A DNA stretch of 64,000 bases from Centipeda artemidis DSM 19719. GTDB lineage: Bacteria; Bacillota; Negativicutes; Selenomonadales; Selenomonadaceae. The DNA lies in NCBI RefSeq assembly GCF_000426665.1, contig NZ_AUFU01000009.1, forward strand, positions 1 through 64,000. Direction: 5' to 3'. Numbering within the stretch: position 1 is the stretch's first letter; each line of letters opens with the position of its first letter. This document shows positions 1-34,395 of the stretch, in pieces. Made by a program: the position numbers and the translations under genes. The notes under the pieces are model-generated. The model had not been told where the DNA came from. It saw only the letters and a program-made list of their open reading frames with translations, and ran no database searches.

Positions 1-33
1 GTTTCAATCCACGCACCCCTCGCGGGGTGCGAC
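1..33 (-). CRISPR. Leader-proximal repeat of a type I-C CRISPR array (array continues off the left edge)
   Basis: The first 33 bases read as a type I-C repeat: on the minus strand it starts GTCGC, has a GC-rich hairpin (GCACCCC pairing with GGGGTGC) and ends GTGGATTGAAAC. The conserved end is the type I-C crRNA handle. The side facing cas2 carries no further repeat, so this is the first repeat next to the leader and the array is transcribed leftward out of the window. Spacer number and content cannot be seen. Confidence 0.9.
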
Positions 34-206
34 AGCAAACGGTCCCACAAAGGGAACATTTTGCCACGTATTTATGGGTGTTACTCGCCACAAATACGAT
101 TTTTCTCGGCGGTTCGTCCCACGCCCCTCCTTTGGCACGGTTCTTCCGCCTATATTTTATCATGCGATTTTTTGTTCACTTCACCTTCGCGCTCATAAAG
201 AACCGC
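34..206 (-). promoter_or_regulatory. CRISPR leader of the active type I-C locus
   Basis: This is the stretch between the first repeat and the cas2 stop codon. It contains no gene and is locally AT-richer than its surroundings (around 145-175). A clearly related sequence occupies the same position in the decayed locus at 13851-14012, sharing blocks such as TTGCCAC, GCCACAAATA, CCCTCCTTTG and TATATTTTAT. Conservation of a non-coding stretch beside both arrays supports leader function: promoter for pre-crRNA and recognition by Cas1-Cas2 during integration. The exact promoter was not resolved. Confidence 0.75.
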
Positions 207-497
207 TCAGATGATGACGGCCGCCTCCAAGTCGTAAGACTCTTTGGTTCCGTAATGTTTCACCTTCGGCCCTTTATCCTTCCCGAGAAAATAAAACCGA
301 AGGCTGTCTTCCTGCAGGTCTATGATGTCGAGCAGGGCGAGTTCCAACTGTTTGCACTGCGTTGGGTCTACTTTGCACTCGAAGACCGAATTCTGCACAC
401 GCTGTCCATATGCCCGGCATTTCCGCGCAACTTGCCGCAGACGCCGCTTCCCTTCGGGATCGACGGTTTTGATATCGTAGGTAATCAAAACATACAT
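207..497 (-). CDS. cas2: CRISPR-associated endoribonuclease Cas2
   Basis: A 96-residue protein starting MYVLITYDIKT, the typical Cas2 beta-strand with the conserved acidic residue (D9 region), followed by a ferredoxin-like fold of normal family length. Cas2 dimers form the core of the Cas1-Cas2 integration complex that inserts spacers at the leader-proximal repeat. It is the last gene of the cas operon, 9 bases after cas1, and is directly followed by the leader and array, the standard type I-C order. Confidence 0.95.
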   Translation of the reverse strand: MYVLITYDIKTVDPEGKRRLRQVARKCRAYGQRVQNSVFECKVDPTQCKQLELALLDIIDLQEDSLRFYFLGKDKGPKVKHYGTKESYDLEAAVII

Positions 498-506
498 GAC
501 ATCCTC

Positions 507-1535
507 CTACTTCCATAGGAACGGCGGATATGCGTCGAGATCACCGCGCAGATGGCGTGCGAGGAGCATTGCCTGCACATGCGGTACAAGTCCCCTCTTC
601 AGCTTTTCCTCCATAAAGGGATGCGTAATGCTCGTCTCCTTGTGTGCGTGCCACGCTTCAAGAATTTTCTTCCGCCCGTCATCCGTGAGACGAACGGCGC
701 CGCTCTCCTCGGTTTTAAAATCCCTTCCGCAAATCTTTTTCGTATTGACCATCGAAAACGCCGTGCGGTCTGCCGTCGGACGAAGTTCTTCCATCATGTC
801 GAGCGCGAGCGACTGCCGCCCCGGACGATCGCGATGCAGAAAACCGACATAGGAATCCAGTCCGACGCCCTCGAGCGCGGATGCGACATCGTTCATGAGT
901 AGCGCATAGAGAAAGGACAGCAGGCAGTTCATGTTGTCGAGCGGCGGCCTGCGGTTGCGTTCCGTGAAGAAGAAATCCTCCTTTTGTTTGAGAATCATAT
1001 CGTCGAATAGGGAGAAGTACGCAACCGCAGCCTTCCCTTCGACACCGCGCAGTTCTTCTAAATCCTGCGTCTTCATCACTTCATAGCACGACGTTTGGAG
1101 GAATTCGCCAATACCTCTGAATTTCTCCTCGTCAATCCGCAGCACATGATCTCTGCTCGTGCGCTCGATGGTCCAACGTGCATTATATATTTTTCCGAGG
1201 ATAAAGTTCTGCGCAAGGGGCAGAGATTCCTCCTCGCTGTCCGCACGCCGGTACTGTTCTTTGCGCAAAAGGACGTTGCCGTTGGTCTTGCCAATGACGC
1301 GCGCTTGGAACCGGCCCTCCGGCGTCATGAACGTCAGCGCGATGTTGTCTTCGGCGCATTTTCTCATGAGCGCAGGGCTCGCCCCCGTATAGCCAAAGGT
1401 TGTAATCTGCTCAAAGTTATGGAGCGGAAAACGCGCGAGTTCCTTATTCTCGCGACGAACGACGACGTTGTTTCCGTCGAGCGCGAGATATGCCTCGTCT
1501 TGGTTGACATAAAGCGTGTTGAGGAGCGGTTTCAT
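507..1535 (-). CDS. cas1: CRISPR-associated integrase Cas1 (type I-C)
   Basis: A 342-residue Cas1 starting MKPLLNTLYV, with the N-terminal beta domain (about residues 1-90) and the alpha-helical catalytic domain containing the region NCLLSFLYALL, GLDSYVGFLHRDRPGRQSLALDMMEELRP, which holds the conserved histidine and acidic residues that bind metal. Cas1 catalyses spacer integration together with Cas2. The ATG overlaps the cas4 stop as ATGA, indicating translational coupling. Length and motifs are complete with no sign of decay. Confidence 0.97.
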   Translation of the reverse strand: MKPLLNTLYVNQDEAYLALDGNNVVVRRENKELARFPLHNFEQITTFGYTGASPALMRKCAEDNIALTFMTPEGRFQARVIGKTNGNVLLRKEQYRRADSEEESLPLAQNFILGKIYNARWTIERTSRDHVLRIDEEKFRGIGEFLQTSCYEVMKTQDLEELRGVEGKAAVAYFSLFDDMILKQKEDFFFTERNRRPPLDNMNCLLSFLYALLMNDVASALEGVGLDSYVGFLHRDRPGRQSLALDMMEELRPTADRTAFSMVNTKKICGRDFKTEESGAVRLTDDGRKKILEAWHAHKETSITHPFMEEKLKRGLVPHVQAMLLARHLRGDLDAYPPFLWK

Positions 1536-2191
1536 CCTTCGGCTAGCCTCCTCTCCAAATACCGTTTCGCCGACCCGAGCCGTTTCAGTTTCGGAATGCA
1601 GACCGTGCTGAGCGAACAGTTGGCGCAGCCTTTTCTCCGTTTGACCTCAGGCGTGTGTCCGCGTGCGATATACCGGCGCATCTGCGCAACCAGAACGGGA
1701 ATCTGCGCTTTCAGCTCATCCGAGATGTCCACCTTGACGCGCCGGCGAATCTCTCCGTAGTAAAGAAACCCGAAGGGAATCTCTGCCGCGAGCATATCCT
1801 CGAGGCAGAGTGCCTGCAGTGTCAGCTGAAGCACATCCTCATCTCCTTCCTTCGGCTTTCCTCTCTTGTACTCGACGGGGACGACGCGATACCGTCCCGC
1901 ATAAGACGGAATCGCAACACCTGCGTCATCTGCATGGAACTCAACGACGTCGCATGCGCCGGAGATGCCAAGGCGGTCGGACGCCACGCGCATACCGCGC
2001 ACGATGATTTTGCCGCCGCGCTTTTCCTTGATGTCCCCATCGTGCGCCTTTTCGTGGAGGGCGTTTCCCTCCACGGTCAATACGTTCTCCTGCCAGTGCT
2101 GCTCGAGATGAATCAGCCCCCATTGGCGCGGACAAAAGGCGTAATGCTGAATCTCCGAGAGCTGCAGATAGTCTTCCTCCGCATAGCCCAT
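1532..2191 (-). CDS. cas4: CRISPR-associated exonuclease Cas4
   Basis: A 219-residue protein from the ATG at 2191 (MGYAEEDYLQL). A longer open frame exists upstream but overlaps cas7 and is not needed. Cas4 features are an N-terminal cysteine (HYAFCPRQW), a RecB-like nuclease core (GNALHEKAH; VPVEYKRGKPK with the catalytic E-x-K) and a C-terminal cysteine cluster (KGCANCSLSTVC), which together with the first cysteine binds a 4Fe-4S cluster. Cas4 trims prespacers and helps select PAM-flanked ones. The start lies one base after the cas7 stop; the stop overlaps the cas1 start. Confidence 0.95.
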   Translation of the reverse strand: MGYAEEDYLQLSEIQHYAFCPRQWGLIHLEQHWQENVLTVEGNALHEKAHDGDIKEKRGGKIIVRGMRVASDRLGISGACDVVEFHADDAGVAIPSYAGRYRVVPVEYKRGKPKEGDEDVLQLTLQALCLEDMLAAEIPFGFLYYGEIRRRVKVDISDELKAQIPVLVAQMRRYIARGHTPEVKRRKGCANCSLSTVCIPKLKRLGSAKRYLERRLAEG

Positions 2192-2192
2192 A

Positions 2193-3092
2193 TCACTCGA
2201 CCTTACTGCCCTCGATATATTTCTCGATGCGAACGCCGCTGAGCGCGTAGAGGGCGCTGTCGTTAAACGTATAGTCCCCCAAGGATTTCGGCATGTCCAC
2301 GCCGTCTTTTTTATGCGCTTCGACACTCCGATGCACTTTTGCACTTGATGCGGCGCCGGTCTTATTGTGATGCTCTATCCAGTAGAACCGGTTCATCTCC
2401 ATGCTGCCCTCGGGGCGTGCCGACGAGGCGTCGTTCTCAAAGATTGTGAGCAAGGCCTCTTTGACCTTGCGCGCGTCCTCCTCGCTGAATCCTGTTTTTT
2501 CGGCAAGCTGGACATTGATGCTCCCCTGCACTTTGTAAACGCCGAAGTCCACGCGGTACTTCATGCCCATGGTATCCGAGCCCTTCTTATCCCCCGGCTC
2601 GTTATTGACGCTCTTGGTAATCTGAACGCCCGTGATGGTCACGGGGTCAAGGCTGACCGCCGTATGAATGGTCACGGGGCCGCGCACGCCGACGGAGACC
2701 GCGTCCACACCGGTGCCCGCCTTGAGCGCGAATACCTGTCCGAATGCACGGACGTCAAACCATGCCTTCGCGGCTTCTTCCGCAATGAGACGAATGCGCC
2801 CTTTTTCTTTATCCTTCATTTTCAACGGTTTTTCCATCGCAGGATTGCCTTCGACACGCGAACGGATGCTGTCGTAACCGTCGTCCACGCGTTCGTTGGA
2901 CTGGACGAGAATCACCTCTCCCACATCCTGCAGACGATTGCGCAGCTTTCTCTTGAGACATACGTCGGAGATTTCTCCGTAGCCGTCATAGTCCGTACGC
3001 GGTTGGTTGCCGTTTAGAGGGTCTCCGTTCGGATTTGAATGGTCCACGACGACGAACCCGATAAAATCAATTTTATTTGCTAATGCAGCCAT
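2193..3092 (-). CDS. cas7: Cascade backbone protein Cas7 (Csd2, type I-C)
   Basis: A 299-residue Cas7/Csd2-family RAMP protein starting [25 protein letters not shown]. The DHSNPNGDPLNGNQPR region, ARAFGQVFA-like stretch (DVRAFGQVFAL) and GVQITKSVN segment are typical of the I-C subtype. Several copies coat the crRNA in the surveillance complex. The start overlaps the cas8c stop by one base. A diverged, broken copy of the 3' half is found at about 14165-14570, so this locus has, or had, a paralogue nearby. Confidence 0.95.
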   Translation of the reverse strand: MAALANKIDFIGFVVVDHSNPNGDPLNGNQPRTDYDGYGEISDVCLKRKLRNRLQDVGEVILVQSNERVDDGYDSIRSRVEGNPAMEKPLKMKDKEKGRIRLIAEEAAKAWFDVRAFGQVFALKAGTGVDAVSVGVRGPVTIHTAVSLDPVTITGVQITKSVNNEPGDKKGSDTMGMKYRVDFGVYKVQGSINVQLAEKTGFSEEDARKVKEALLTIFENDASSARPEGSMEMNRFYWIEHHNKTGAASSAKVHRSVEAHKKDGVDMPKSLGDYTFNDSALYALSGVRIEKYIEGSKVE

Positions 3093-3493
3093 TATACATT
3101 CTCCTCTCTCTTCTCTTCCACTTTCTGCCGATTTTCTTTCCGCTCAAGTTCCATTGCATAATTTTGGCAAGAGAACCCCAACAGGAATTTCACATCGAGC
3201 GGCGCGTCCGAACTAAAGTCTTTGTCGTCGAACAGCCAACAGATTTTATCAATCAGCTTCCTCTCTTTACCGCCATATCGTTCCCTTTTCTGTTCGTACG
3301 GAAGCAGCTTTTTCCGCAGGGTCATCCATGTCGATGCCGGACGAACCGAAAAGATTTCCATATAGCGCATCGCATTGGTCGTGCGGCTCGCAAGCTCCTC
3401 CCGACTAAACGTCGCTCGCTCCATCTGGTCCGCGACTGAAAGAAGCCGGCCAAACAGATAGGACCTGTCTTTCTTTTCCTCGTCAAGCGCCAC
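3092..3493 (-). CDS. cas11c: Probable internally translated small subunit Cas11c within cas8c
   Basis: Within cas8c, the minus strand carries AGGAGG (3502-3507), then eight bases, then a GTG (3491-3493) in the cas8c frame at codon 513 (5029-3493 is 1536, a multiple of three). Translation from it would give a 133-residue, mostly alpha-helical protein beginning (M)[17 protein letters not shown] and ending at the cas8c stop. Type I-C systems are known to make Cas11c this way, with several copies bridging the belly of Cascade. The ribosome binding site and spacing are seen; actual translation is inferred. Confidence 0.75.
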   Translation of the reverse strand: MALDEEKKDRSYLFGRLLSVADQMERATFSREELASRTTNAMRYMEIFSVRPASTWMTLRKKLLPYEQKRERYGGKERKLIDKICWLFDDKDFSSDAPLDVKFLLGFSCQNYAMELERKENRQKVEEKREENV

Positions 3494-5029
3494 AGTATAC
3501 TCCTCCTTCACATGATTGAGCCGATTGCAGATAATGGCGCACGCCGGCTCAAGCAGCCGTCTGTGCCAACCGAAATAATCGTCAATCGCAGCTCTTTTCA
3601 CCGTTCTGCTGAGCGCCATTTTTGCCATATCGAGCGGCAGCGCCTGTCCCTGCACAATGGCGCAAAAGATACGCTCCAACTCCATTTTTAATTGATTGTC
3701 ACCGATATTTTCTCCATGACAGGCTTCGACCAGTCGCTTCGGTACCGGCACGCCAAAATACGCATAGGATTTTTCGGTCTCCTTGTCATAGCCGTGCTGG
3801 AGCCAGCGTCCGCAGCTGTGCCACTTCTCGATGCGCTCGATAAAGTCCTCGCCCGCCATCTCGCTGTAATAGCAGATGGAAAGGCGTCCGGGGGTTGCGG
3901 CATCGAGAATCATGACATTGACTTGACTCGTCTCCGCCCGTTTGAATTCGGCGCGATAGCCGTCCAGCGTGCGCTTCATGGACGCTGCCCAGTCCTCCAT
4001 CGTGACCGGCATCGATGGCGCTGCGTCCGCTGCCCGGCGCCGGCGCGTCATCCTTGCCGTATCGTCGAACGCGGAGGGAATTTCCTGCGCATGCCGCCCC
4101 CACGCAAGGAATACGCGCCCGTCGACGACGTACCCTTGATTGCGAATGAGCCACATGAGCGCATTCATCGCTTTCTGCGAGGTCTCATAACCGATGGAGA
4201 TGCACTCGTCCGCATCGGCAAACCGACCGCGAAATGTAAAGCCTTGGCTGTCGTTGGAGGAAATGATTTTCGCGCCGTCTCCCGCGAACCGAATTCCCTT
4301 CCCGTGTTTATCCGTCACGGGGAGCATCTCTCCCGTCGCATAGCAGAGTTTTTGCTCCATATCGGAAAAGTGATGCGTAAAAAACTGCCGGTATTTCTTT
4401 TGTAAATTGGTGTCTCTCCAAAGTTCCGGACAATCGTCGCCGTCGAGCTCCACACGAAACCGCACCATCGATTTCAGCACGTCGCCGGCAGCAGCCTTAA
4501 AAATCGGAGGCTTTTCCTGTTCCTTATCCGTCCACTTTTGAAGAATCTCCCCCTTGTCGTTACAATAGAGCACCTTCTTTGCAATCAAATCGCGAATCGC
4601 ATCATGCTCCGTAATGTAACGATAAACGGCGCGCACCTTAGGCTCGGCGTCCTCCGACTGCGCCCATGCCCCCAGCAGTTCCGCGTACTGCTCGTAGGCG
4701 CTCTTCCGGTCTTTTTTCTTCGCCGGGACAAACGCATGATAATCCCGCGCGATGTAGGACAGGTTGTCATGCAGCGGGTGCGGCGACGGGCTGGACGTCC
4801 GCGACGCCGAATCCGGCGTACAGGGAATGAGCGTCGGCTGCTGCCCCTTATCCGACACGACCTCGGCATGAATGAGCCGTCCGTCGCCGCTCAATGTCAT
4901 CTCAATCAGAGCGTTCTGCACGATATGTCCAACGGGAGGAAGGAGCGTCTTCATGCCGGCAGCGCCGACTTTGCCGGCGAACTGCTCGTTTTCGTTATAG
5001 GTTTGTACCAACTGCTCCATCCAGCTCAT
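3092..5029 (-). CDS. cas8c: Cascade large subunit Cas8c (Csd1)
   Basis: A 645-residue Cas8c/Csd1-type protein starting [14 protein letters not shown], with the subtype-typical segments [13 protein letters not shown], and MARMTRRR-flanked central region. In type I-C systems this subunit reads the PAM and contacts the 5' end of the guide. Its C-terminal alpha-helical part (about residues 513-645) is also expected to be made as a separate small subunit, see the internal start at 3493. The start overlaps the cas5c stop by four bases (ATGA). Confidence 0.95.
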
Positions 5030-5745
5030 AGACGCCCTCCTTCCAGCTCTTTGAGTTCTTCCTCCGCAAACGTAACGCTGTTCTTGTCAAACAGCTTGGT
5101 CGTTACCTTGCGCACATCGCGGACAAGGGTGCATTCCTCGGGGCGCGGGAAGCGGAGTATGCCGTCCTTCATCATCGGCTGCCATAGCCGCACTTGGAGC
5201 ATATTGCCTCCGGTCTCGTCGGCATACTTAAACCCGTGAAACATCGTACCGAGCGGCATCTCGCCCGCGTGGTCGTAATATCCCTCGCCTTCCCCATAGG
5301 TGACGGGCTCGACATAGCCCTGACACTCGCGCGTGCCGAGGAAGATATCGCGGCGCCCGCCGCGCTCCACCATGCGCTTTGCGATGTTGTGGTGCTTATG
5401 CTCATCCCTGTCCCCTGCAAGCTCTTTGCGATGCGTATTGAATTCGAAATGCGCGCGCACTTGATAGCAAACGTCGCTCAGATATTTGTAGACGGAGAGT
5501 TCATTTCCACCGCCGCCGTACTTTAACGGCTTTACCCCGCGCGACTGTGTGGCTATGCGATGCATCACCCTCACCTCGTCAATCACCCAAAAGATCGTGG
5601 GTTTCCAATAGATGCTCTCCGTGATGCCCTTGAGCGCCTGATAGGTCGGCACAGAGTACGAGGATCGTTCACCGCCAATCTTCGTGATGGGGTCAGTGAA
5701 CAGCGCCATCCTGCCGTATACTTGAAACTCGATTCCATTTCTCAT
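5026..5745 (-). CDS. cas5c: Cas5c, crRNA-processing endoribonuclease of type I-C
   Basis: A 239-residue Cas5 (Csd5/Cas5d) protein starting [19 protein letters not shown], with the N-terminal RAMP fold and typical [13 protein letters not shown] segment. Type I-C lacks Cas6, and Cas5c cuts pre-crRNA at the base of the repeat hairpin and caps the 5' handle. Its active site needs a tyrosine, lysine and histidine; a lysine-histidine rich stretch ([11 protein letters not shown]) is present at about residues 120-130, but I cannot assign the residues without alignment. No cas6 is seen in the window, which is consistent. Confidence 0.93.
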
Positions 5746-5759
5746 TTTATATCACCTCC

Positions 5760-8228
5760 TTAAATCATGAAGTACGCATTCGCCTGCTCCTCGAACTGCA
5801 CGCCGAATGCTTCACTGTAATATTCTTCGCGCAGCGCAATCACCCCGCTCTCCATGCGACTAATCGCCCCTAGTCTATCAAGGATTTTTATTTCGTATGA
5901 AAATAGATTGACCATGTACTGCTGTGCGCTCTTCAATCGTTTCCGATAATCCTGCCCCCACCCGACATCTTTTGATTCAAACGCCGTAATCAGCTCCTTT
6001 CCCGCAGCGTAAGGCACCAGTACAGCCTCTGCATGAGAATCTATGACTTCAAACGCCCGGCCTGCGTCGTGAAATGCGTGCGCAAAACCGGTATGTACCT
6101 CATCTCCGCGCTCCTTGCATACGCGCACCCCCGCGCGGTTGACGGACAAGAGGTCAAGCAAGGTATTCCCATCATGCAGGGGGTAGCCCATACGCCCCTC
6201 TATTTGCTCCTTATAAAATTTACGGAAGTATTCTTCCATCGCCTGGGGAGAGAGAATCCCGTCTGCCTCCTTCTCAAACAATAGTACGCGCGCAATTTTT
6301 TGTCCCGCTTGTATATCCTCAAGACGGCTGAGATTTTCATCGGCAAACGTAAAGACGCGCACAATCCCCTGCGCCAGCGCGCCGTGTCGATTGCAACGCC
6401 CAGCCGCCTGCGCAATGGAGGAAAATCCCGCGAGCGCGCGGTAGACGACGGGGAACGACACATCCACACCCGCTTCGACGAGCTGGGTACTGATGCAAAT
6501 AAGCCGCCTCTCAGGATGTTCTTTGCGGCACCTGAGTTCCTCTCGTACTTCTGCGAGGACTTTCTTACGATGTGCGGGACACATCTTCGTGCTCAGGTGT
6601 ACCGCGCGAATCTCTATATCAGCATCCTGAACGAGCTCAGATACCGCCTGATAGAGTTCCCGTGCCTGCTTCGTGAGGTTCACAATACAGAGCACATCGC
6701 CTTCTTCCTCCGCGCTCCTGCAAATCGCCGCGGCAATATCTTCCACGGAGCTGCCTCCGTCTCGGCAGCAATTTTCGATGCGCACGCGTCGGAATGCCTC
6801 GAACACTTCCGATATATCCGTTGTCAGCTCGGCGTCCCTCCCGGAATCAATCGGGAAATCCAGTTTTTCCAGCGGCGGCTGCGTCGCCGTGCACAGCACC
6901 GTTGTCGTCCGGCAGAAATCCTTGAGAAAGCTTATCGCAAGATTGAACATATAAGTGCATTTCACAGGCAGCGTCTGTATTTCGTCAAATATCAATATGC
7001 TGTCCTGCAGCGCGTGCAGTCTTCTGATGGAACTGTTTCCGCCGGCAAAAAGCGTATTAAGGAACTGCACCTGGGTCGTAAAGATCACGGGGACATCCCA
7101 GCGTTCCGTTAGGATGCGCCGCCAATCCATGCCCTCCGTGTCTTCTCCGTCATCCTCCTCTGAGATGACATTGGAGTGATGCTCTAGGATTGCCTCGTCC
7201 CGGTCAAATATCTCACGGATTTCCTTGGCATTTTGGTCGATGATACTGGTGTACGGAATCACAACGATAATCCGTTTCTTATGCCACCGCTTTGCATGCG
7301 CGAGCGCAAAACGCATACTTGCAAGCGTCTTGCCACCTCCCGTTGGAACGGTGAGCCGATAGATGCCCGGCGTCTGCTCCGCCGCATGCAGGCAGTCGTC
7401 GCTCATCTTTTGGCGCAGCTGTGCGATGCTCTTCGCCTTTTCTTCCCGCGGGGTGGGAAAGCCCGCAATCTTCTTTTCGAGCTTTGCAGAGAACTCTTCC
7501 CAAAGGGGCTCCGTCTCCCATGCGAATGTCAGACGGTCGCCCAGTTCAAACTCCGCACTGTCCAAGCGGTCCGCATCCACGAGCATACTAAAAAGAAGCT
7601 TGATAACCATACCCCAATAAAAATGGTAGACTTCATCCAGCTTCTCTTTACCGATATTCTCCTCCCATGCTGAGAGCTCACGAACAGAAGCTGCAAAAAG
7701 GCAGTCCAGCTCCTCCTCCGAGATAACCTCTCGAAAGAAATAGGCAATATCGACGCCCGAAAACACGTCCTCTTTACTCATCCGATGGAGGAAACTGTAT
7801 GTGTCCTTCCCGCCGGCAGCGCTCGTCAGCCCATGTTCGCCAAGATAGTTGAGGAGCCCGCTGTGATGTGAAAAGATCGCAAGGGCGGCGATCTCAATCA
7901 CGATACTGCTCATGTCGCCCTGTCCGCCGTATCTCTGCATTAATAACTGCCCGCCCGCCGAGGAATGATCCACAGAGCCCCTCCGACTATAGTCCCCGGG
8001 ATGCGCATGACTCCAAGAGAGATACTCTGCAAACGCCTCGCTGCATTTGCCTAGATCGTGCAGGATACCGATAAGATACGCTGTCGAGGAAAGCCCCGCC
8101 GCCTCGGCGGATGCCGACATCAGACCGGCAACGTGACGCAGATGCTCAGAAAGCGACTGCGCTTGGGGCGCGCCGTTTTTCCTATTCAAATCGTCTTTCT
8201 TCATATGTGCAAGATACACACGCGCCAT
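5760..8228 (-). CDS. cas3: CRISPR-associated helicase-nuclease Cas3 (HD plus DExH)
   Basis: An 822-residue fused Cas3. The N-terminal HD nuclease shows SLSEHLRHV, GILHDLGKCSEAF, DHSSAGG and FSHHSGL. The helicase part shows Walker A TVPTGGGKTLAS, a DExH-type box LIFDEIQTLP, and C-terminal motifs (RLICISTQLVEAGVDV, IAQAAGRCNRHG). Cas3 is recruited by Cascade at a matched target and degrades the displaced strand. It is the first gene of the operon; GGGAGG precedes the ATG. Only 43 bases separate it from the upstream pilC stop. All motifs are intact, so interference looks functional. Confidence 0.97.
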   Translation of the reverse strand: MARVYLAHMKKDDLNRKNGAPQAQSLSEHLRHVAGLMSASAEAAGLSSTAYLIGILHDLGKCSEAFAEYLSWSHAHPGDYSRRGSVDHSSAGGQLLMQRYGGQGDMSSIVIEIAALAIFSHHSGLLNYLGEHGLTSAAGGKDTYSFLHRMSKEDVFSGVDIAYFFREVISEEELDCLFAASVRELSAWEENIGKEKLDEVYHFYWGMVIKLLFSMLVDADRLDSAEFELGDRLTFAWETEPLWEEFSAKLEKKIAGFPTPREEKAKSIAQLRQKMSDDCLHAAEQTPGIYRLTVPTGGGKTLASMRFALAHAKRWHKKRIIVVIPYTSIIDQNAKEIREIFDRDEAILEHHSNVISEEDDGEDTEGMDWRRILTERWDVPVIFTTQVQFLNTLFAGGNSSIRRLHALQDSILIFDEIQTLPVKCTYMFNLAISFLKDFCRTTTVLCTATQPPLEKLDFPIDSGRDAELTTDISEVFEAFRRVRIENCCRDGGSSVEDIAAAICRSAEEEGDVLCIVNLTKQARELYQAVSELVQDADIEIRAVHLSTKMCPAHRKKVLAEVREELRCRKEHPERRLICISTQLVEAGVDVSFPVVYRALAGFSSIAQAAGRCNRHGALAQGIVRVFTFADENLSRLEDIQAGQKIARVLLFEKEADGILSPQAMEEYFRKFYKEQIEGRMGYPLHDGNTLLDLLSVNRAGVRVCKERGDEVHTGFAHAFHDAGRAFEVIDSHAEAVLVPYAAGKELITAFESKDVGWGQDYRKRLKSAQQYMVNLFSYEIKILDRLGAISRMESGVIALREEYYSEAFGVQFEEQANAYFMI

Positions 8229-8271: not shown

Positions 8272-9489
8272 CTACATCATCCGATCCATCGCCTCAAAGA
8301 CGGGCAGTAAGAATGACAGTACCCCGAAGAAAATCACGAGTCCGATCACGACGATCATGATCGGCTCAGCAAGCGCCTCAATGCGCGCCGCGAGCTGTTT
8401 CGACACACGTTTACAGTAGTCCGCCGACCGTCGCAGCAGCCTCTCGAGGTCACCCGCCGTCTCCCCCGCCGCAAGCATTCCCTGCAAAAGCTGAGGGAGC
8501 TGTCCCTCCTGTGCAAGCGCATAGGCAAGCGTGCGTCCCTGCATGAGACGTTCCTCCACGCGCCCGAGCGAGCGGACGAGCACGCAGTTCCCCGCCACAG
8601 AACGTGCTAAATGCACCGCGCAGTCCAGCCGTATACCGCTGTGCATCAGGATAGCTAGAGTTCTGAGGATCATCCCCCACGCCGAAAATCGCAGAAAGCG
8701 CCCCAATACAGGCACACAAAGCAGCAACGCATCCAAATAATACTGCAGCGCAGGCACACGCACGAGCGCAATCATTCCGACGAGGAGCAAAACGGCGGCG
8801 CCGGGGACGAGGTAGGGATGAGTCGTAAATACATCCGCAGCCTGCAACAGGAGACGCGTCGGAAGCGGCGGCTCCGCCCCGAGGTCGCGCAGGAGAGAGG
8901 CAAATACCGGCAGGATAAACATCGTCATGAGCACGATCGAAAATCCCGTCGCCACGAGCAAAAAGAGCGGATACGCAAGCGCGCTTTTCATCGACTCCCG
9001 CAGTGTATGCGCCTCCGTGAGGAACGCCGCCGTCTCCGCAAAGATATGATCCAACGTGCCGCTCTCCTCTCCCGCACGAACCATGCCGACAACACTCGGT
9101 GAGAACACCCTCGGTCGGCGCTCCATCGCCTGTGACAGCGCCGTACCGCACAGTACATCCGCATGGAGCGCGGCAACAAGCCGTCCGTAAGCAGATGCGG
9201 CATCCGCCCCCGCCGCGATCTGCCCCAGCGCCTCATGAACCGGCATCCCTGCAGCCAGCAGTGCCGCCAGTTCCTCAAAGAGTGCGATGCGCTCCTCCTC
9301 CGACGGCACATCAAGGCACCATAAGCGAATGTCCCCCACTCGCAGCAGACGACGCCGCTCCTTGAGATCGACCACCGTCAGCCCCTCTGCAGCAAGACTG
9401 CGCACTGCCTTCACAGGATGCTCCGCCGTAACCGTCCCCTTGACACGCGTTCCATCCGTCGCGCACGCACGATAGGAAAACGACTTCAT
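8272..9489 (-). CDS. pilC: Type IV pilus / type II secretion inner-membrane platform protein PilC (GspF family)
   Basis: A 405-residue protein with the two repeated GspF domains (about residues 65-190 and 270-395), each with FEELAALLAAGMPVHEAL-like and MVRAGEESGTLD motifs, and three hydrophobic segments (YPLFLLVATGFSIVLMTMF, a central one near 210-230, and IMIVVIGLVIFFGVLSFLL at the end). An N-terminal beta part matches the usual PilC cytoplasmic start (FSYRACATDGTRVKGTVTA). It anchors the assembly ATPases at the pilus base. Its ATG overlaps the pilT stop by four bases. The next pilus genes (pilin, pilM-O) do not follow; the cas operon does. Confidence 0.92.
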   Translation of the reverse strand: MKSFSYRACATDGTRVKGTVTAEHPVKAVRSLAAEGLTVVDLKERRRLLRVGDIRLWCLDVPSEEERIALFEELAALLAAGMPVHEALGQIAAGADAASAYGRLVAALHADVLCGTALSQAMERRPRVFSPSVVGMVRAGEESGTLDHIFAETAAFLTEAHTLRESMKSALAYPLFLLVATGFSIVLMTMFILPVFASLLRDLGAEPPLPTRLLLQAADVFTTHPYLVPGAAVLLLVGMIALVRVPALQYYLDALLLCVPVLGRFLRFSAWGMILRTLAILMHSGIRLDCAVHLARSVAGNCVLVRSLGRVEERLMQGRTLAYALAQEGQLPQLLQGMLAAGETAGDLERLLRRSADYCKRVSKQLAARIEALAEPIMIVVIGLVIFFGVLSFLLPVFEAMDRMM

Positions 9490-10484
9490 CGGATGCGCCC
9501 CTCTGCCCGCAGCGTCGCCTCCGCCATCGCCGCCGTCTGCATTCCCTGCGCTGCACCGCTCATCATCACGGAGTCAAGCTGCGCATAATGTCCCTGCCGA
9601 ATCATATTGCGTACGGCAGTCGTCGCGCAAAGCGCTTCGATCAGCGCAACGCGCCCGCCGGACACGCACGGCAGGAGCTGCTGTGCAAAGATGCCTGTTA
9701 CCGTATCGGCAAATGCCGCACGCACGGCATCACGCACATCCGCCGGGAACATACTCTCCACGCGGAGCGCCGTCTGCGCAGCACTGCGTGTATGGAGCGT
9801 ACCGAGCACGAGCACCCCCGTCGCCGCCGCCGAAAGCGCCGCCTCCATCGTCTCACGGTCGCGGATTTCGCCGATGAGCAGGATATCAGGATCCTCACGC
9901 AGCGCGCTCCGCACGCCCGCCGGAAAGGATAAAAAATCGCGCCCAAGCGCTCGCTGACTAATGAACGAGCGCTTAGGCGCAAATATGTATTCCATCGGAT
10001 CCTCGAGCGTCACAATATGCGCCGCCCGCGTTTGATTGATCTCCTCGAGCAGCGCCGCAATCGTCGTCGTCTTGCCCGAGCCGGTCGCCCCGCAGACGAG
10101 TGCCAGTCCTTCACGTGCCGCAGCGAGCGCACGGAGCGAAGCGGGCATCCCGATTTCCCCAGGCGTACGAATCCGCGCCGGTAAAAGGCGAAACGCAAGC
10201 GCAGGAACATCCCGTACCCTGTATACATTTCCACGAAATCGACGTCCCTCGTACTGCCACGAAAAGTCCACATCATGCTGTGCGGCAAGTACCGCCTGCT
10301 GCCCCTCAGAGAGCATCGAGGCCGTCAGCACATGCATAAAGTCTGCGGTCGGCGTCATCTCCGCCGCACACAGCACACCGTCACAGCGCATTTGTACTCG
10401 CTGATGTGCAGAGACATGGAGATCCGACGCCTCCGCCGCGATTGCCCGCCGCAGGATTTTCTCCCATTGCATCTGCTCATCCAT
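9486..10484 (-). CDS. pilT: Type IV pilus retraction ATPase PilT
   Basis: A 332-residue GspE/PilT ATPase from the ATG at 10484 (MDEQMQWEKIL), chosen because GGGAGG lies seven bases upstream; a longer frame starts at 10505. It has the N-terminal domain with ASDLHVSAHQ, Walker A GATGSGKTTTIAAL, Asp box EDPMEYIF, Walker B ILIGEIRDRETMEAAL and the histidine box GTLHTRSAAQT. These define PilT, which powers pilus retraction and twitching motility. Start and pilB stop overlap by eight bases. Confidence 0.92.
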   Translation of the reverse strand: MDEQMQWEKILRRAIAAEASDLHVSAHQRVQMRCDGVLCAAEMTPTADFMHVLTASMLSEGQQAVLAAQHDVDFSWQYEGRRFRGNVYRVRDVPALAFRLLPARIRTPGEIGMPASLRALAAAREGLALVCGATGSGKTTTIAALLEEINQTRAAHIVTLEDPMEYIFAPKRSFISQRALGRDFLSFPAGVRSALREDPDILLIGEIRDRETMEAALSAAATGVLVLGTLHTRSAAQTALRVESMFPADVRDAVRAAFADTVTGIFAQQLLPCVSGGRVALIEALCATTAVRNMIRQGHYAQLDSVMMSGAAQGMQTAAMAEATLRAEGRIR

Positions 10485-11715
10485 AGAGCGCCCTCCCGAC
10501 TTCATCCAGAGTCGTTTCTCCTCTGATCACCTTGACCACGCCGTCCTGCCACAGCGTCTCCACCCCGTCCTCCGCTGCCGCCGCATAGAGCGCCGCTTTG
10601 TCCTCCTCCCGCAGGATTGCGCTGCGAATGCGTTCGGAGACGGGCAGCACCTCATGGATCGCCATGCGACCGCTATAGCCCGTGCCGCGACAATGCGCGC
10701 AGCCCCGTCCGCGTGTGAGTTGCAGTCCCTCCTGATAAAACGCGCCGAGCTGTGCCGCTTCTTTTTCTCCCGGTGTATAGCGCTCACGGCAGTGCGGACA
10801 GATACGACGTACCAGCCGCTGCGCAATCACCCCCGAGAGCGTCGCCGCAAGAAGATAGCGCGGCACGCTCATTTCCGCCATGCGAAAGACCGCCGACACC
10901 GCATCCTCCGTGTGCAGCGTCGAAAAGAGCGCATGTCCCGTCAGCGCGATACGCACCGCCATCTCCGCTGTCTCTCGGTCGCGGATCTCACCGAGAAGGA
11001 TCTTCTGCGCATCCTGCCGGAGCGCCGCGCGCAGTCCTGCGACAAACGTCAGCCCCGCCTCCGGGTTTACCTGTATTTGGCTCACCCCATCGATGCGCCG
11101 CTCCACAGGATCCTCGAGCGTCATGATATTACAGCTCACATCGCTGAGCGCCGCAATCGCCGCATAGAGCGTCGTCGTCTTGCCCGAGTTCATCGGTCCG
11201 CAGAGGAGGAGCAGCCCCGTCGGGCGACGAATCAGGCTTTCAAAAAGTGAGAGATTCCGCGCGGAAAAGCCCAACTCCGCACAACCGAGAAACCGCGCGT
11301 CCGCATCCATAATGCGCACAACCATCCGCTCACCGTCCATAACGGGAAGCACCGCAACACGCATATCCACAACACGCCCCTCATGCGAGTGGGAGAGCTT
11401 ACCATCCTGCGGGCGGTTGCGCTTTGCCGTATCGATGCCCGCCATCACCTTGAGTCGCGCAATCACGACGGGCGCGAGCTCTCTTGGCAGATGCGGCGCA
11501 ATTTCCCGCAGCAGCCCGTCCACACGCAGGCGGATACGCATCCCGCCGCCCTGAGGCTCGAGGTGGATGTCCGTCGCCCCCTCGGAAAGCCCGGCTCCTA
11601 GAATCGCGTTCACGAGCGCAACAACTGGACTACCCTGTGCCCCACCCTCACGAGTGCCGGCGCGCAGATCACGCATCGCTGCCGCCACAAGTCTCTCCGG
11701 AAACACTTGCTCCAT
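10477..11715 (-). CDS. pilB: Type IV pilus assembly ATPase PilB/GspE, short form
   Basis: A 412-residue secretion ATPase: N2-type domain (GATDIHLEPQGGGMRIRLRVDGLL), Walker A LCGPMNSGKTTTLYAA, Asp box EDPVERRIDGVSQ, Walker B ILLGEIRDRETAEMA, and a tetracysteine zinc motif (CPHCRERY and CAHCRGTGYSGR). It lacks most of the N1 domain that makes typical PilB about 550 residues long, so it is a naturally short form or 5' truncated; no in-frame upstream coding was found before the truA stop 14 bases away. It should drive pilin polymerisation with PilC. Confidence 0.9.
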   Translation of the reverse strand: MEQVFPERLVAAAMRDLRAGTREGGAQGSPVVALVNAILGAGLSEGATDIHLEPQGGGMRIRLRVDGLLREIAPHLPRELAPVVIARLKVMAGIDTAKRNRPQDGKLSHSHEGRVVDMRVAVLPVMDGERMVVRIMDADARFLGCAELGFSARNLSLFESLIRRPTGLLLLCGPMNSGKTTTLYAAIAALSDVSCNIMTLEDPVERRIDGVSQIQVNPEAGLTFVAGLRAALRQDAQKILLGEIRDRETAEMAVRIALTGHALFSTLHTEDAVSAVFRMAEMSVPRYLLAATLSGVIAQRLVRRICPHCRERYTPGEKEAAQLGAFYQEGLQLTRGRGCAHCRGTGYSGRMAIHEVLPVSERIRSAILREEDKAALYAAAAEDGVETLWQDGVVKVIRGETTLDEVGRALYG

Positions 11716-11729
11716 GGCGTCCGCCCCTT

Positions 11730-12527
11730 TCAGTCCGGCACATCCGTGCGCCCCGCATAGTCTACATGGAGCAAATAAAGCCCGCAGGCGGGCGCCGTTG
11801 GGCTTGCCAAACGCCGATCGTGCGCTGCAAAAATCTCGGTGAAACGGTCCGTAGAAATACGCCCCAGCCCCACATGAACGACCGTGCTCATGATATTGCG
11901 CACCATATGGTAGAGGAACCCGTTTCCGTGCATATAGCAGGAAAGCTGCCCGCCCTCCTCATCGAGACGGATCTCATCCAGCGTGCGCACAGGCGACATC
12001 GGCGCGCCCCCCGCTGCACGAAACGAACTATAGTCGTGTGTGCCGACAAGCAGCCTGAGCACCGCACGCATAGCCTCCACATCGAGTGGACGAAAGATCT
12101 GCCACGCATAATTGCGCGTAAACGGATTCGGTACCGTACACCGCTCAATGCGGTAAAGATACGCCTTGCCTGTCGAAGAGTGGCGTGCACTAAAATCCCG
12201 TCCCGCCTCCCACGCCGCCGTCACCGCAATATCGGGCGGCAGGAGTCCGTTCACCGCACGCGGCAGCTGCGCAACCGGAATCCGCCCGTCCGTGAAGAAA
12301 TTAACCACCTGCCCATAGGCGTGTACGCCCGTATCCGTACGCCCCGCCGCCGCCAGCTCCACCGGTTCCCCGCAGACCTCCGCAAGCACCTTTTCCAGCA
12401 CATTTTGTACCGCAACAACAGGCAGTGATTGTCGCTGAAACCCATGGTAACGCGTACCGTCATAGGAAAGGCGCAGTGCGATATTACGCGCACGTGCCTT
12501 CATTATCTCCACATGCTCAGGGCGCAA
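11730..12527 (-). CDS. truA: tRNA pseudouridine(38-40) synthase TruA
   Basis: TruA of about 260 residues. Motifs: LRLSYDGTRYHGFQRQ, the catalytic aspartate in AAAGRTDTGVHAYGQVVNF, and FLYHMVRNIM near the C-terminus. It isomerises uridines in the tRNA anticodon arm. The start is ambiguous: TTG 12527 has GGAGG eight bases upstream, while ATG 12503 gives a family-like start (MKARARNIALRL) with only a tight GGAG. The gene overlaps the ecfT end if TTG is used. The pairing with ecfT is common in Firmicutes next to the ribosomal protein cluster. Confidence 0.93.
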   Translation of the reverse strand: MRPEHVEIMKARARNIALRLSYDGTRYHGFQRQSLPVVAVQNVLEKVLAEVCGEPVELAAAGRTDTGVHAYGQVVNFFTDGRIPVAQLPRAVNGLLPPDIAVTAAWEAGRDFSARHSSTGKAYLYRIERCTVPNPFTRNYAWQIFRPLDVEAMRAVLRLLVGTHDYSSFRAAGGAPMSPVRTLDEIRLDEEGGQLSCYMHGNGFLYHMVRNIMSTVVHVGLGRISTDRFTEIFAAHDRRLASPTAPACGLYLLHVDYAGRTDVPD

Positions 12528-13332
12528 GATACGAGCCTCCAAGACTCACGGCACAAACACCCGCCGCCCCAGTCAAAAAGATCGCAACCGCCGCGTAGTC
12601 GAGCCGCCCTATGCGCATCTCCTTCATCCGCGTACGCCCCTCGCCACCCTGATAGCACCGTGCCTCCATCGCAAGTGCCAGCTCGTCCGCCCGGCGAAAC
12701 GCCGAGAGGAATAGCGGCACGAGAATGGGCACAATCGCGCGCATTCGCCGCAGAATATTCCCCTGTTCGAAGTCCATCCCCCGCGCTTTCTGCGCCTTCA
12801 TAATGCGATCCATCTCCTCAAGAAGCGTCGGCACAAAGCGCAGCGCGATCGTCATCATCATCGAAAGCTCATGCACCGGCACACCTACACGCCGCAGCGG
12901 CGACATCAGCGCCTCCAGCCCATCTGTCAGACGCAGCGGACTCGTCGTCAGCGTGAGCAGCGTGCTCAGCAAAATGAGAAGGATCAGGCGCAATCCGATA
13001 TAGCCGCCGCGTGCAAGCCCCTCCCACGTCGCCATCAACACACCAAGCCGAAACGCTTCCTCCCCCGGCGTCATAAAGAGATGAACAAAGAAGGTAAAGA
13101 CAACAATCCACAGAATCGGACGAACCGAGCGCAGCTGCATCATCAGAGGCACACGAGACATCACCATCAGAACACCAACTGCGACGGAGAGGACGGCAAA
13201 TCCCGCCGGATTTTCCACAAAGAAAATAAGCAACAAGAACCCGATCAGTAAGAGGATTTTTACACGCGCATCCATGCGGTGCAGGAACGAATCCCCCGGT
13301 AAATATCTGCCGATTTGAATATCGTGAAGCAA
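12517..13332 (-). CDS. ecfT: Energy-coupling factor transporter transmembrane protein EcfT
   Basis: A 271-residue integral membrane protein with the EcfT start (HDIQIGRYLPGDSFLHRMDARVKI), several hydrophobic spans and the two coupling-helix motifs of the ARG type (KAQKARGMDF; LALAMEARCYQGG). EcfT joins two EcfA ATPases to exchangeable vitamin-binding S components. The start is a TTG with at best a weak, over-spaced GGAG, and no ecfA gene lies upstream: a degenerate CRISPR region begins about 50 bases away. The partner ATPases must be encoded elsewhere. Confidence 0.92.
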   Translation of the reverse strand: MLHDIQIGRYLPGDSFLHRMDARVKILLLIGFLLLIFFVENPAGFAVLSVAVGVLMVMSRVPLMMQLRSVRPILWIVVFTFFVHLFMTPGEEAFRLGVLMATWEGLARGGYIGLRLILLILLSTLLTLTTSPLRLTDGLEALMSPLRRVGVPVHELSMMMTIALRFVPTLLEEMDRIMKAQKARGMDFEQGNILRRMRAIVPILVPLFLSAFRRADELALAMEARCYQGGEGRTRMKEMRIGRLDYAAVAIFLTGAAGVCAVSLGGSYLAP

Positions 13333-13386: not shown

Positions 13387-13850
13387 GTTTGAATCCATGC
13401 TGTTGTTAGGGCGACACGATACACTCTCGCTCTTGGTCTCAACGGATCGGCAATGTTTCAATCCACGCGATTCAACACAAGTTGCAACATCGCCGCCTCA
13501 AAAAACAAGCGCCCTCATCTTGGATATGACGATAGTATATCATACATAACGCAAAGGTACAAGTGTTTCAATTGCTATTCCCATAAAATTTTCAAAATCA
13601 ATTGAAAAGTTCTCATGAATTTTAATCTGCGTGACTGTGTCAAGTGAAGCAAGATTTTGTAGGCAAATCGTAGACAAATCTACAAGTGCCAATCCACGCA
13701 CTCGTCGGCGCGCGACCGTGCGAAGCAAATAACGCCCCAACCTGCAGATGGTTTCAATCCACACGCCGCATGCGCGGCGCGACCGTTCCAGCTCCGCCCC
13801 ACGCGCCTTGAGCTGTCGTTTCAATCCACACGCCGCATGCGCGGCGCGAC
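13387..13850 (-). CRISPR. Degenerate type I-C CRISPR array of the second locus
   Basis: Two identical 33-base repeats lie at 13751-13783 and 13818-13850 (stem CGCCGC/GCGGCG, ends GTTTCAATCCAC and GCGAC), separated by a 34-base spacer. A third, 31-base decayed repeat at 13686-13716 is separated by another 34-base spacer (13717-13750). Older remnants sit at 13387-13415 and 13455-13487. Between 13488 and 13685 no repeat is recognisable. Repeats decay with distance from the leader side (13851), as expected for an array no longer acquiring spacers. Confidence 0.88.
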
Positions 13851-14012
13851 GCAAAAGGTTCCATGGAAGGTTTCTTTTGCCACATATTCGTGGGTATTAC
13901 TTGCCACAAATATGTTTTTTCTCACCGTTTTGTCCCACAGCCCTCCTTTGATACGGTATTCCTCTTATATTTTATTACGGTATTTTCTGTTCACTCCACG
14001 TTCGCACACATA
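13851..14012 (-). promoter_or_regulatory. Diverged copy of the CRISPR leader
   Basis: This stretch aligns through its whole length with the active leader at 34-206: both share TTGCCAC, a GGGT-TTACT block, GCCACAAATA, CCCTCCTTTG, TATATTTTAT and TTTTCTGTTCACT/TTTTTGTTCACT, in the same order and orientation relative to the last repeat. It ends where cas2 would begin; a short cas2-end-like match (CATAAAGA) follows, then similarity is lost. Confidence 0.8.
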
Positions 14013-14164
14013 AAGAGTTACTCTAATAAAACCTATAGCAGTTTTTCCCAACACTTCATCTGCCAAACTACTAGAAAGAGATTCCCAGTATATCGGCATT
14101 CCTCCCCGCCCGCCCGCAGGGGATGCTCTCTACCCGAGGGTTCGGTCGCTCGGCGCACATTATA

Positions 14165-14570
14165 TCTGTCCTTCAGTTTAAGTACACCCTCTAGCGCATA
14201 AAGTACGTTATCATCAAATATGTAGTCCTCGAGAGACTTCGCTATATCTACGCCGTCTTTTTTATGCCCGGTGACACCCCGATGCGCTTTTCCGATCGAT
14301 AAGACATTAGTTTTATTGTTGTGTTCGATCCAAAATAAAGTCGACGCATCTCTATTGTCCCCTTAAGACGCGCCGATGAGTCGTCGTTTTCAAACATTGT
14401 TCGTAATACCTCTTTGAGTTTCCATACAGCTTCTAGCTTCTTCGCTAAATCCGGTCTTTTCGGCAAGTCGTGCATTGATGCTCCCCTGCACTTTTGTATC
14501 CCCCAAAATCAGCACGGTATTTCATGCCCATGGAATCCGCACTTTTTATCTCTTCCTCATTTTTCTATGA
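14165..14570 (-). pseudogene. Broken cas7 (csd2) fragment of the second type I-C locus
   Basis: The minus strand matches the C-terminal half of the intact Cas7. The best frame (14248-14475) reads LKEVLRTMFENDDSSARLKG and TIEMRRLYF, corresponding to VKEALLTIFENDASSARPEG and SMEMNRFYW in the intact protein. Nucleotide similarity continues both sides in other frames: left to about 14165 (region of the intact 3' end) and right to about 14570 (GATGCTCCCCTGCAC, TTCATGCCCATGG shared). Several frameshifts and stops break it. No cas1, cas4, cas8 or cas3 remnant was recognised. Confidence 0.85.
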
Positions 14571-14670
14571 TACCATCTCCTTAAGTTTCTACACACGTTA
14601 TCACTCCGGAACCAATTATTGCAATTATTGATATCGCCTTATAGAAATATCCCATACCTTATCGCTCCGA

Positions 14671-14703
14671 TTTCAATCCACGCCTCTCGTTCGAGATGCG
14701 ACA
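14671..14703 (-). CRISPR. Solitary variant type I-C repeat
   Basis: A 33-base sequence with the conserved ends TTTCAATCCACGC and GCGAC but a different stem (TCTCG pairing with CGAGA). It stands alone beyond the cas7 fragment, with no second copy within 100 bases on either side. It looks like a remnant of a third array end, or of the far boundary of the decayed locus. Confidence 0.75.
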
Positions 14704-14735
14704 CCCACCCCGCATGCTTATGCGAAGCAGCGGCT

Positions 14736-14759
14736 CGTCTTTTCCACAAAAAAGACGAT
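14736..14759. terminator. Hairpin with T and A runs
   Basis: TCGTCTTTT and AAAAGACGA form a nine-base inverted repeat with a six-base loop just after the solitary repeat. It could terminate transcription entering from the right, or simply be part of the decayed region. Confidence 0.4.
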
Positions 14760-14828
14760 GCCCTACGCGTATTCTAGCATAGGTCAGAGACCAATGCAAT
14801 TTATCTTTGTCCGCATGGCGCCCATCAT

Positions 14829-32304: not shown

Positions 32305-33473
32305 TGCTCTTTTTTCCTTTCCAGTCTAAAAAATGCGATTTCAGGCGGGCATCCGATGCGCAGAGGAAACCAGCTTCCGTTGCCCACGTGCACGTAGCCG
32401 TAGTTGTCGCCGATGCGCACCATGCCGCGCGTGTATTTGAATACGGGGAACAGCGGAAGCCCGAGGAAGCCGAACTGGCTCCCATGGGTATGCCCCGTGA
32501 GCGTCAGCGGTACATTGCCGCGTGCCGCCGCGTCGTCGATGAACTCCGGGTGATGCGCGAGCAGGACGGTCACGGCATCCGGCGGGACATCCGCCATCGC
32601 CGCATCGAAAAACGCCGCCTTCTGCGCCGCAAATCCGTCACCGTGCGCAAAGGGATAATCGACGCCTGCGATATAGATGCCGCGCCCCGGCACCTCAGCC
32701 GCACCGTTCAGCACGACCCGCACACGCCCCGCGCGCGCCATCGCGTCTACGATGCGCCGCCCGTCGTGATAGTATTCGTGGTTGCCGATGCAGTACCAAA
32801 TGCCGTTCGAATAATCTCTGACATGTGCGGCAAGCGTCTCTGCCGCCGCCTCATTTTGACGCTCATCGTCGAAGAGATCACCCGTCACGGCGAGGAGATC
32901 CGCGCCGCGCGCGGCGACCTCCCCGAGCAGCTGCTCAAAATCCTCCACGGAAAAATAGGGTCCCAGATGCATGTCGCTGATCTGCGCGACGACCATGCCC
33001 TCCGCCTCGTGCGGAAGGCGCGCGATGGGAATCGTATAGTCGTTTTGTACCGTATGCAGACGTTCGAAGAACGCGCCATATCCGCTGAGCAGCAGCCCTA
33101 CCGCAGGATAGGCGGCAGCACCCGTGAGCATCCGCCGCCGTGCGGGATCATACGGCGCAGCGAGCAGTCTGCGTCGCAGATACCGCAGTGTGACGCCCGC
33201 GACGACCGCCGCAAGCGTAATCCACTGCGCCGTAAAGAGCAGAATGATGAGAAACGCGACCGCCGCGCCCCACCCGTGCATGAATGCATTGCGAATGAAG
33301 AGGATCAGACTGCCGATACCGAGGATGTCAAACGCCGAGACGCCGAGACGCGCAAAGAACAGCCGCCGCCCCGCGGCGAGATAGCGCAGGAAATACAGCG
33401 ACGCGCCGAGGATCAGGCCGACCGCTCCGATGAGGATCAAAGTGAATATGAGCAAGGGCGCCCCTTTCTGCAC
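32301..33473 (-). CDS. Membrane-anchored metallophosphoesterase (YaeI-like)
   Basis: A 390-residue protein with about four N-terminal hydrophobic spans (residues 5-110), then a calcineurin-like phosphoesterase domain: VVAQISDMHLGPYF, VTGDLFDDER, IGNHEYYHD, TVLLAHHPEF and LTGHTHGSQFGFLG give the full set of metal ligands (D-x-H, GD, GNHE, H, GHTH). Close relatives hydrolyse lipid-linked or nucleotide pyrophosphates; the substrate is not clear. The catalytic domain would sit at the membrane surface. It starts five bases after the AEC transporter stop. Confidence 0.88.
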   Translation of the reverse strand: MQKGAPLLIFTLILIGAVGLILGASLYFLRYLAAGRRLFFARLGVSAFDILGIGSLILFIRNAFMHGWGAAVAFLIILLFTAQWITLAAVVAGVTLRYLRRRLLAAPYDPARRRMLTGAAAYPAVGLLLSGYGAFFERLHTVQNDYTIPIARLPHEAEGMVVAQISDMHLGPYFSVEDFEQLLGEVAARGADLLAVTGDLFDDERQNEAAAETLAAHVRDYSNGIWYCIGNHEYYHDGRRIVDAMARAGRVRVVLNGAAEVPGRGIYIAGVDYPFAHGDGFAAQKAAFFDAAMADVPPDAVTVLLAHHPEFIDDAAARGNVPLTLTGHTHGSQFGFLGLPLFPVFKYTRGMVRIGDNYGYVHVGNGSWFPLRIGCPPEIAFFRLERKKEQ

Positions 33474-33477
33474 GAAC

Positions 33478-34395
33478 TCAGATGCCGGTGAGCACCGAGA
33501 CGAGCGGTATGGTCGCCACCGAAATCATCGTCGAGAGCGCGATGATCTCCGTCATGAGCGGATAGGCGACCTTGTTGTAGAGCAGCGCGACCATCGCGAC
33601 CATGCCGCCCGTCGGCGCGGCGACGATGACGAGACTGCACCCGAGGATATACGGATTCGTGACGAAGAGTTTCATGATGAGGAGCAGCGGAATCGGGAGC
33701 ACCACCGCTTTCAAAAAGGTATAGAGGAGCAGTTTTCGATCCGTCAGCATATGGCGCACATGGATGTCCTTGAGCGACGCGCCGATCATCATCATCGCGA
33801 GCGGCGCCGTGAGCGCGCCGATCATCGTGAACGCCTGCATGAGCAGCGCCGGCGTCGGGATTTCGGCAAAATAGATCACGCACGCAATCAGCGATGCGAC
33901 AATGCCGGGGTTGATCAGCATACGGATGAGGTCTGCGCCGCGCCGCTTGTGAATGCTGATGGACGACACGCCGTAGACGAAGAACAGCAGATTCACGGGG
34001 ATGAAGAAGAGCGTCATATAGACGACCGCCTGATCGCCGTACACGCCCTGCACGAGCGGCAATCCCATAAAGAGCGAGTTGTTGAACCAGAACGAGAGGT
34101 TCACCGCGCCGCGCAGACGCCCGCGAAACCGCAGGATGAGCGGCAGGAGGAAGCCGACGATGCACATCATGGCGAGCAGTACGGCGTACGCCGTATAGGT
34201 CTCGATGACCTGCGCGAGCCCCATGTGTTCCTCCGCGTGCATCGCGGCGGAGATGATGAGCGCCGGACATGCGATGTTGACAATCAGCGAGGAAAACTGC
34301 TCCTGATTGTTCGGGATGATGATGTTGTACCGCCGTGCAAGCGCGCCCGCAAAGATCATTAGAAAAAATACGACCATCTGGCCTAAAATGAGCAT
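33478..34395 (-). CDS. AEC family transporter (auxin efflux carrier/malate permease type)
   Basis: A 305-residue integral membrane protein with about ten hydrophobic spans and the bipartite AEC fold; segments NPGIVASLIACVIYFAEIPTPALLMQAFTMIGALTAPLAMMMIGASL and CSLVIVAAPTGGMVAMVALLYNKVAYPLMTEIIALSTMISVATIPLVSVL are typical. Members export organic acids, including malate. It lies 35 bases after uvrA in the same direction and directly before the phosphoesterase. Confidence 0.87.
   Translation of the reverse strand: MLILGQMVVFFLMIFAGALARRYNIIIPNNQEQFSSLIVNIACPALIISAAMHAEEHMGLAQVIETYTAYAVLLAMMCIVGFLLPLILRFRGRLRGAVNLSFWFNNSLFMGLPLVQGVYGDQAVVYMTLFFIPVNLLFFVYGVSSISIHKRRGADLIRMLINPGIVASLIACVIYFAEIPTPALLMQAFTMIGALTAPLAMMMIGASLKDIHVRHMLTDRKLLLYTFLKAVVLPIPLLLIMKLFVTNPYILGCSLVIVAAPTGGMVAMVALLYNKVAYPLMTEIIALSTMISVATIPLVSVLTGI

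Follow-up and report, generated by a model that had tools for sequence, protein, structure and literature searches.

A decayed type I-C CRISPR locus near an apparently intact one in Centipeda artemidis DSM 19719

The 64,000-nucleotide stretch of the Centipeda artemidis DSM 19719 genome analyzed here (the window; the start of contig NZ_AUFU01000009.1, hereafter C8) carries degraded CRISPR-Cas sequences at positions 13387 to 14703 in addition to a type I-C locus at positions 1 to 8228. The question is whether the degraded sequences come from a second I-C locus that once worked and died, from a copy that has been decaying ever since it arose, or from an array that is still in use.

The apparently intact locus (1 to 8228, minus strand) comprises the last repeat of an array, its leader, and cas2-cas1-cas4-cas7-cas8c-cas5-cas3. 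In comparison with the NCBIfam I-C models, Cas1c, Cas7/Csd2, Cas8c/Csd1, Cas5c, Cas4, and Cas2 scored above the curated cutoffs and the Cas3 core and HD domains were found; by these models the locus is predicted to be a complete I-C system. The window begins at the first base of C8, within this live array. The end of contig C23 and the start of C8 both fall within arrays of the same orientation, and other contigs had no such repeats; the live array probably continues from C8 onto C23, a join that would span a gap in the assembly within the array. Two types of repeat hairpin, GCGCCCCGTGCGGGGCGC and GCACCCCTCGCGGGGTGC, are arranged in blocks in the live array (C23 10761 to 11527 and window 1 to 33). 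Most sister loci have one dominant type, and the mix could reflect recombination between arrays. Near the far end of the live array, directly upstream of nadE, an apparent integrated mobile element (C23 404 to 8025) contains ParA- and ParB-like, replication-like, and tyrosine-integrase-like genes, named from translations only.

Pairwise alignment and tblastn showed that the remnants listed in the earlier note are real. They comprise degenerate I-C repeats with two spacers of 34 nt, a complete leader, and the 3' part of a cas7 broken by frameshifts, all on the minus strand. The array begins at its leader-distal end with the most degenerate repeat (13387 to 13417, 21/33 matches to the genus repeat), followed by a repeat (13455 to 13488, 22/33) in which the first 14 nt alone are intact and the proper hairpin is gone. 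It is then interrupted by an A+T-rich stretch (13505 to 13680) with a 14-nt inverted repeat (13566/13594), possibly an inserted sequence. The third repeat counted from the leader (13686 to 13716, 26/33) is degenerate with a hairpin still possible, and next to it are spacer S2 (13717 to 13750), the second repeat (13751 to 13783), the newest spacer S1 (13784 to 13817), and the first, leader-proximal repeat (13818 to 13850). The first and second repeats are identical, with a hairpin of -15.4 kcal/mol in which a C-G pair of the genus repeat is replaced by a compensatory G-C pair. The hairpin and the 3' handle GTGGATTGAAAC of these two repeats are of I-C type, the older repeats being degenerate. 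The pattern GTTTCAATCCACRC occurred 13 times in the genome, always on the same strand, compared to 0 for the reversed control.

The diverged leader (13851 to 14012) is separated from the cas7 (csd2) fragment (14193 to 14550) by 180 bp (14013 to 14192) at the place of the deleted cas2-cas1-cas4, where neither tblastn nor blastn revealed a remnant of these genes. Beyond cas7, at the place of the lost cas8c-cas5-cas3 (14551 to 14669), tblastn gave no convincing remnant of the three genes. The layout of array, leader, and cas genes in the same orientation as the live locus was thus as had been noted, whereas the likeness to positions 1 to 8228 is only partial, with cas2, cas1, and cas4 missing before cas7 and cas8c-cas5-cas3 after it. 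Since cas8c, cas5c, cas3, cas4, cas1, and cas2 are all absent, this is a relic and not a system, and it produces no Cas proteins. A promoter scan of the relic gave no more matches than shuffled sequence. On the cas3 side, an orphan repeat (14670 to 14702, minus strand) has a different stem and matches the genus repeat at 25/33 and the live repeat at 27/33 positions. Its stem sequence is the third of its kind, and no exact repeat core was seen at this position in sister loci.

The relic leader aligned to the live leader (34 to 206) with 77 to 79% identity and a local score of 182, compared to a shuffled maximum of 40, and is homologous to the I-C leaders of the genus. Six derived states are common to the relic and live leaders at columns that are invariant in ten other sisters. 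Strict conservation of the relic leader was rejected, as it is changed at 10 of the 84 columns invariant across 12 functional leaders; column changes numbered 20/98 in the relic versus 14 in the live leader. Because the scores of the leader search dropped to background beyond the genus, no intact relative of the relic locus was found.

The cas7 fragment aligned to live cas7 (2242 to 2591) with 71 to 73% identity (70.6% over 360 nt, E 9e-42). It matched the live Cas7 protein by tblastn (E 9e-29), and live Cas7 matches TIGR02589; hence it is of the Cas7/Csd2 I-C type, as a fragment only. These alignments agree with the view in the earlier note that there were two related I-C loci and that one of them died, the other being apparently intact; this view holds with the corrections given here. 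Within about 370 nt, relic cas7 contains 10 indels, 9 of them frameshifting. The differences between relic and live cas7 at codon positions 1, 2, and 3 were 0.13, 0.19, and 0.48, compared to about 0.12, 0.10, and 0.46 to 0.58 between functional sister genes and live cas7, an almost nil excess at the first position and a present one at the second. Because the differences concentrate at third positions, as between functional sisters, relic cas7 is judged from its codon pattern to have diverged under selection as a working gene and to have died later, not to have decayed from birth. A rough estimate of the distance accumulated after its death would be 0.05 to 0.13 substitutions per site.

The genes between the two loci are duplicated as well. 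An intact pilC-pilT-pilB-truA-ecfT cluster (8272 to 13332, minus strand) has a decayed second pilC and ecfT beside the live array on C23. The decayed pilC, between nadE and the array (C23 9837 to 10071 and 10336 to 10401), is similar to window positions 8273 to 8523 and 8833 to 8898, and the decayed 5' end of ecfT (C23 10475 to 10594) to 13204 to 13320. Both remnants match the copies of their own genome above those of any sister (289 versus 182 for pilC, 121 versus 101 for ecfT). Their differences from the intact copies at the three codon positions, 0.27, 0.22, and 0.34 in pilC and 0.25, 0.16, and 0.34 in ecfT, form a flatter pattern, which is why the pil copy on C23 is taken to have decayed from birth. 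Given the presumed C23-C8 join, the order would be U32 - dead I-C - ecfT..pilC - live I-C - ecfT'..pilC' - nadE, and the unit of I-C plus ecfT-truA-pilB-pilT-pilC would form a tandem pair with reciprocal loss. A partial copy of the live I-C locus, made by simple duplication and decaying ever since, could explain the matching order and orientation and the duplicated ecfT and pilC flank. However, the third-position excess in cas7 requires a long functional divergence, unlike in the flatter pilC and ecfT remnants, and the relic repeat carries its own compensated stem, so we regard such a dead-on-arrival copy as improbable.

The neighbors of the relic point to the place from which it came. In Selenomonas sp. 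F0473 and 10 of 12 other sisters, nuoA of the nuo operon lies upstream of the U32-family gene, and in six sisters the trp operon abuts the cas3 end of the I-C locus with its trpA end. In the source genome, nuoA is instead joined to trpA on C6 (about 33100 to 33640), and U32 adjoins the relic locus, with the junction at 14703 to 14828. From these two pairs of junctions, it follows that an inversion would have brought U32 next to the native I-C locus, the nuoA-trpA junction on C6 being its likely reciprocal breakpoint. As one inversion accounts for both junctions, the now-dead locus would once have stood at trpA; no I-C relics were found at this trp site on C6. The neighbor on the array side in F0473 now lies on C1 and the old ecfT neighbor on C3, both without repeats.

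Between the live locus and F0473, the cas genes show unusually little divergence, with third-position differences of 0.12 to 0.22 (0.28 in cas3) compared to 0.27 to 0.51 in core genes. Live cas3 (5760 to 8228) is a mosaic relative to F0473, with both ends at species-level distance and the middle much closer. Its 5' third (750 nt) is at core-gene distance (0.38 versus 0.22, P = 9e-6), and the contrast was not seen against four other sisters. The closeness of the cas genes together with the mosaic cas3 implies introgression, and the live locus seems to be native in part, overwritten by sequence of the F0473 lineage; the direction is our reading, and transfer from this lineage into F0473 could also have occurred.

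We therefore consider it probable that the relic comes from a once-functional, likely native I-C locus tied to U32 by inversion, in tandem units with reciprocal loss, and that the surviving I-C locus was largely overwritten by F0473-lineage sequence. The inversion would have joined the native genus locus to U32, and the unit of I-C and ecfT-truA-pilB-pilT-pilC would have become a tandem pair. The unit beside nadE would have kept CRISPR-Cas and lost pil/ecfT, and the unit beside U32 would have kept pil/ecfT and lost cas. F0473-lineage sequence would have replaced much of the surviving locus, and the presence of a working second set would have made the native I-C set dispensable. Several points count against this explanation: relic cas7 groups beside live cas7 and F0473 with a weak bootstrap of 48; the array-side neighbor of the relic, ecfT, is not native, so that more than one rearrangement is needed; the introgression may have gone the other way; and the C23-C8 join would span an assembly gap. 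Alternatively, the I-C unit beside nadE could be a circular donor fragment integrated by a single crossover in the ecfT-pil region, making the tandem without duplication of native I-C. This would give ecfT..pilC - I-C - ecfT'..pilC' directly and suits the resemblance of the live cas genes to F0473; however, the donor must have had pilC joined to cas3, whereas in F0473 the I-C locus lies at trpA and pilC elsewhere, and the native-like 5' part of cas3 suggests overwriting of a native copy. We find this route unlikely.

The noted decay gradient exists, with older repeats at 21 to 26/33 to the genus repeat and the two newest at 29/33, and degeneration of trailer-end repeats is also common in other CRISPR loci (PMC5491264). 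The conclusion drawn from it, an array frozen long ago, is not supported by the two newest repeats, which are identical at 33/33 positions with an intact, compensated hairpin. A frozen array would decay evenly, and the gradient ending in two undecayed identical repeats therefore indicates a young leader end. If both repeats had stood since cas7 died, the chance of 0/33 differences would be about 0.04 at 0.05 substitutions per site and 0.0002 at 0.13. This identity argues against long freezing, with the caveats that the distance since the death of cas7 is roughly estimated (the chance would be 0.14 at 0.03 substitutions per site) and that the leader itself is decaying.

It is conceivable, although somewhat unlikely, that only the cas genes are dead and that the leader and newest repeats still serve the intact I-C proteins in trans. 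The improbable repeat identity agrees with this, as do live Cas5c and Cas1c, intact by family models, and trans use of an array without cas genes is established for the Enterococcus faecalis orphan CRISPR2, served by CRISPR1-Cas (PMC5491264). On the other side, the relic leader is loosening too, good repeats number only two, and gene conversion could likewise keep them alike. The relic leader and these two repeats may still give crRNAs for the live Cas proteins. The fuller version, in which the array kept acquiring spacers and giving crRNAs via the neighboring, partly introgressed I-C proteins after its cas genes had died, evolving its own compensated stem, seems doubtful.

Neither spacer led to a target. 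The 20-mer of S1 had no match in viral contigs, the 18-mer of S2 matched two, neither match extending, and no spacer matched phages. S2-repeat-S1, compared with 14 genus genomes, gave nothing but repeats among the matches listed, and the stem variant CGCCGC/GCGGCG was found in no other species of the genome collection searched. An anti-cas orphan array was rejected, as the relic spacers matched no cas gene of any compared locus with up to 8 mismatches. In this the relic differs from the I-F orphan arrays described in Escherichia coli (PMC8616872), in which the spacers are anti-cas; it resembles them as an array remaining after cas loss. Like E. faecalis CRISPR2, it is an array lacking cas genes of its own, in a species that carries a related complete locus as well; unlike the relic, which has two good repeats and is known from sequence alone, CRISPR2 is of type II and its spacers were shown to work in trans (PMC5491264). 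With the I-C loci of oral Selenomonas and Centipeda (F0473, S. noxia, S. infelix, and C. periodontii), it shares the leader, 3' handle, cas7, and orientation, and it differs in the reduction of the cas operon to a frameshifted cas7 piece, in its stem, and in its chromosomal neighbors.

No paired I-C loci with one decayed were found in the literature searched. The process, decay of CRISPR-Cas beside a related locus, is ordinary in kind; the case is distinctive in that its history, with inversion, tandem units, and replacement, has been preserved. If the array did go on working through its neighbor, an immigrant Cas set would have captured a native array. That a related locus has replaced a native CRISPR-Cas is usually deduced from trees. 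In this genome, the locus that was replaced, the junction of the inversion, the duplicated and reciprocally lost flanks, and the mosaic cas3 are preserved close together, and the case lets the order of events in immune-locus turnover within one subtype be worked out.
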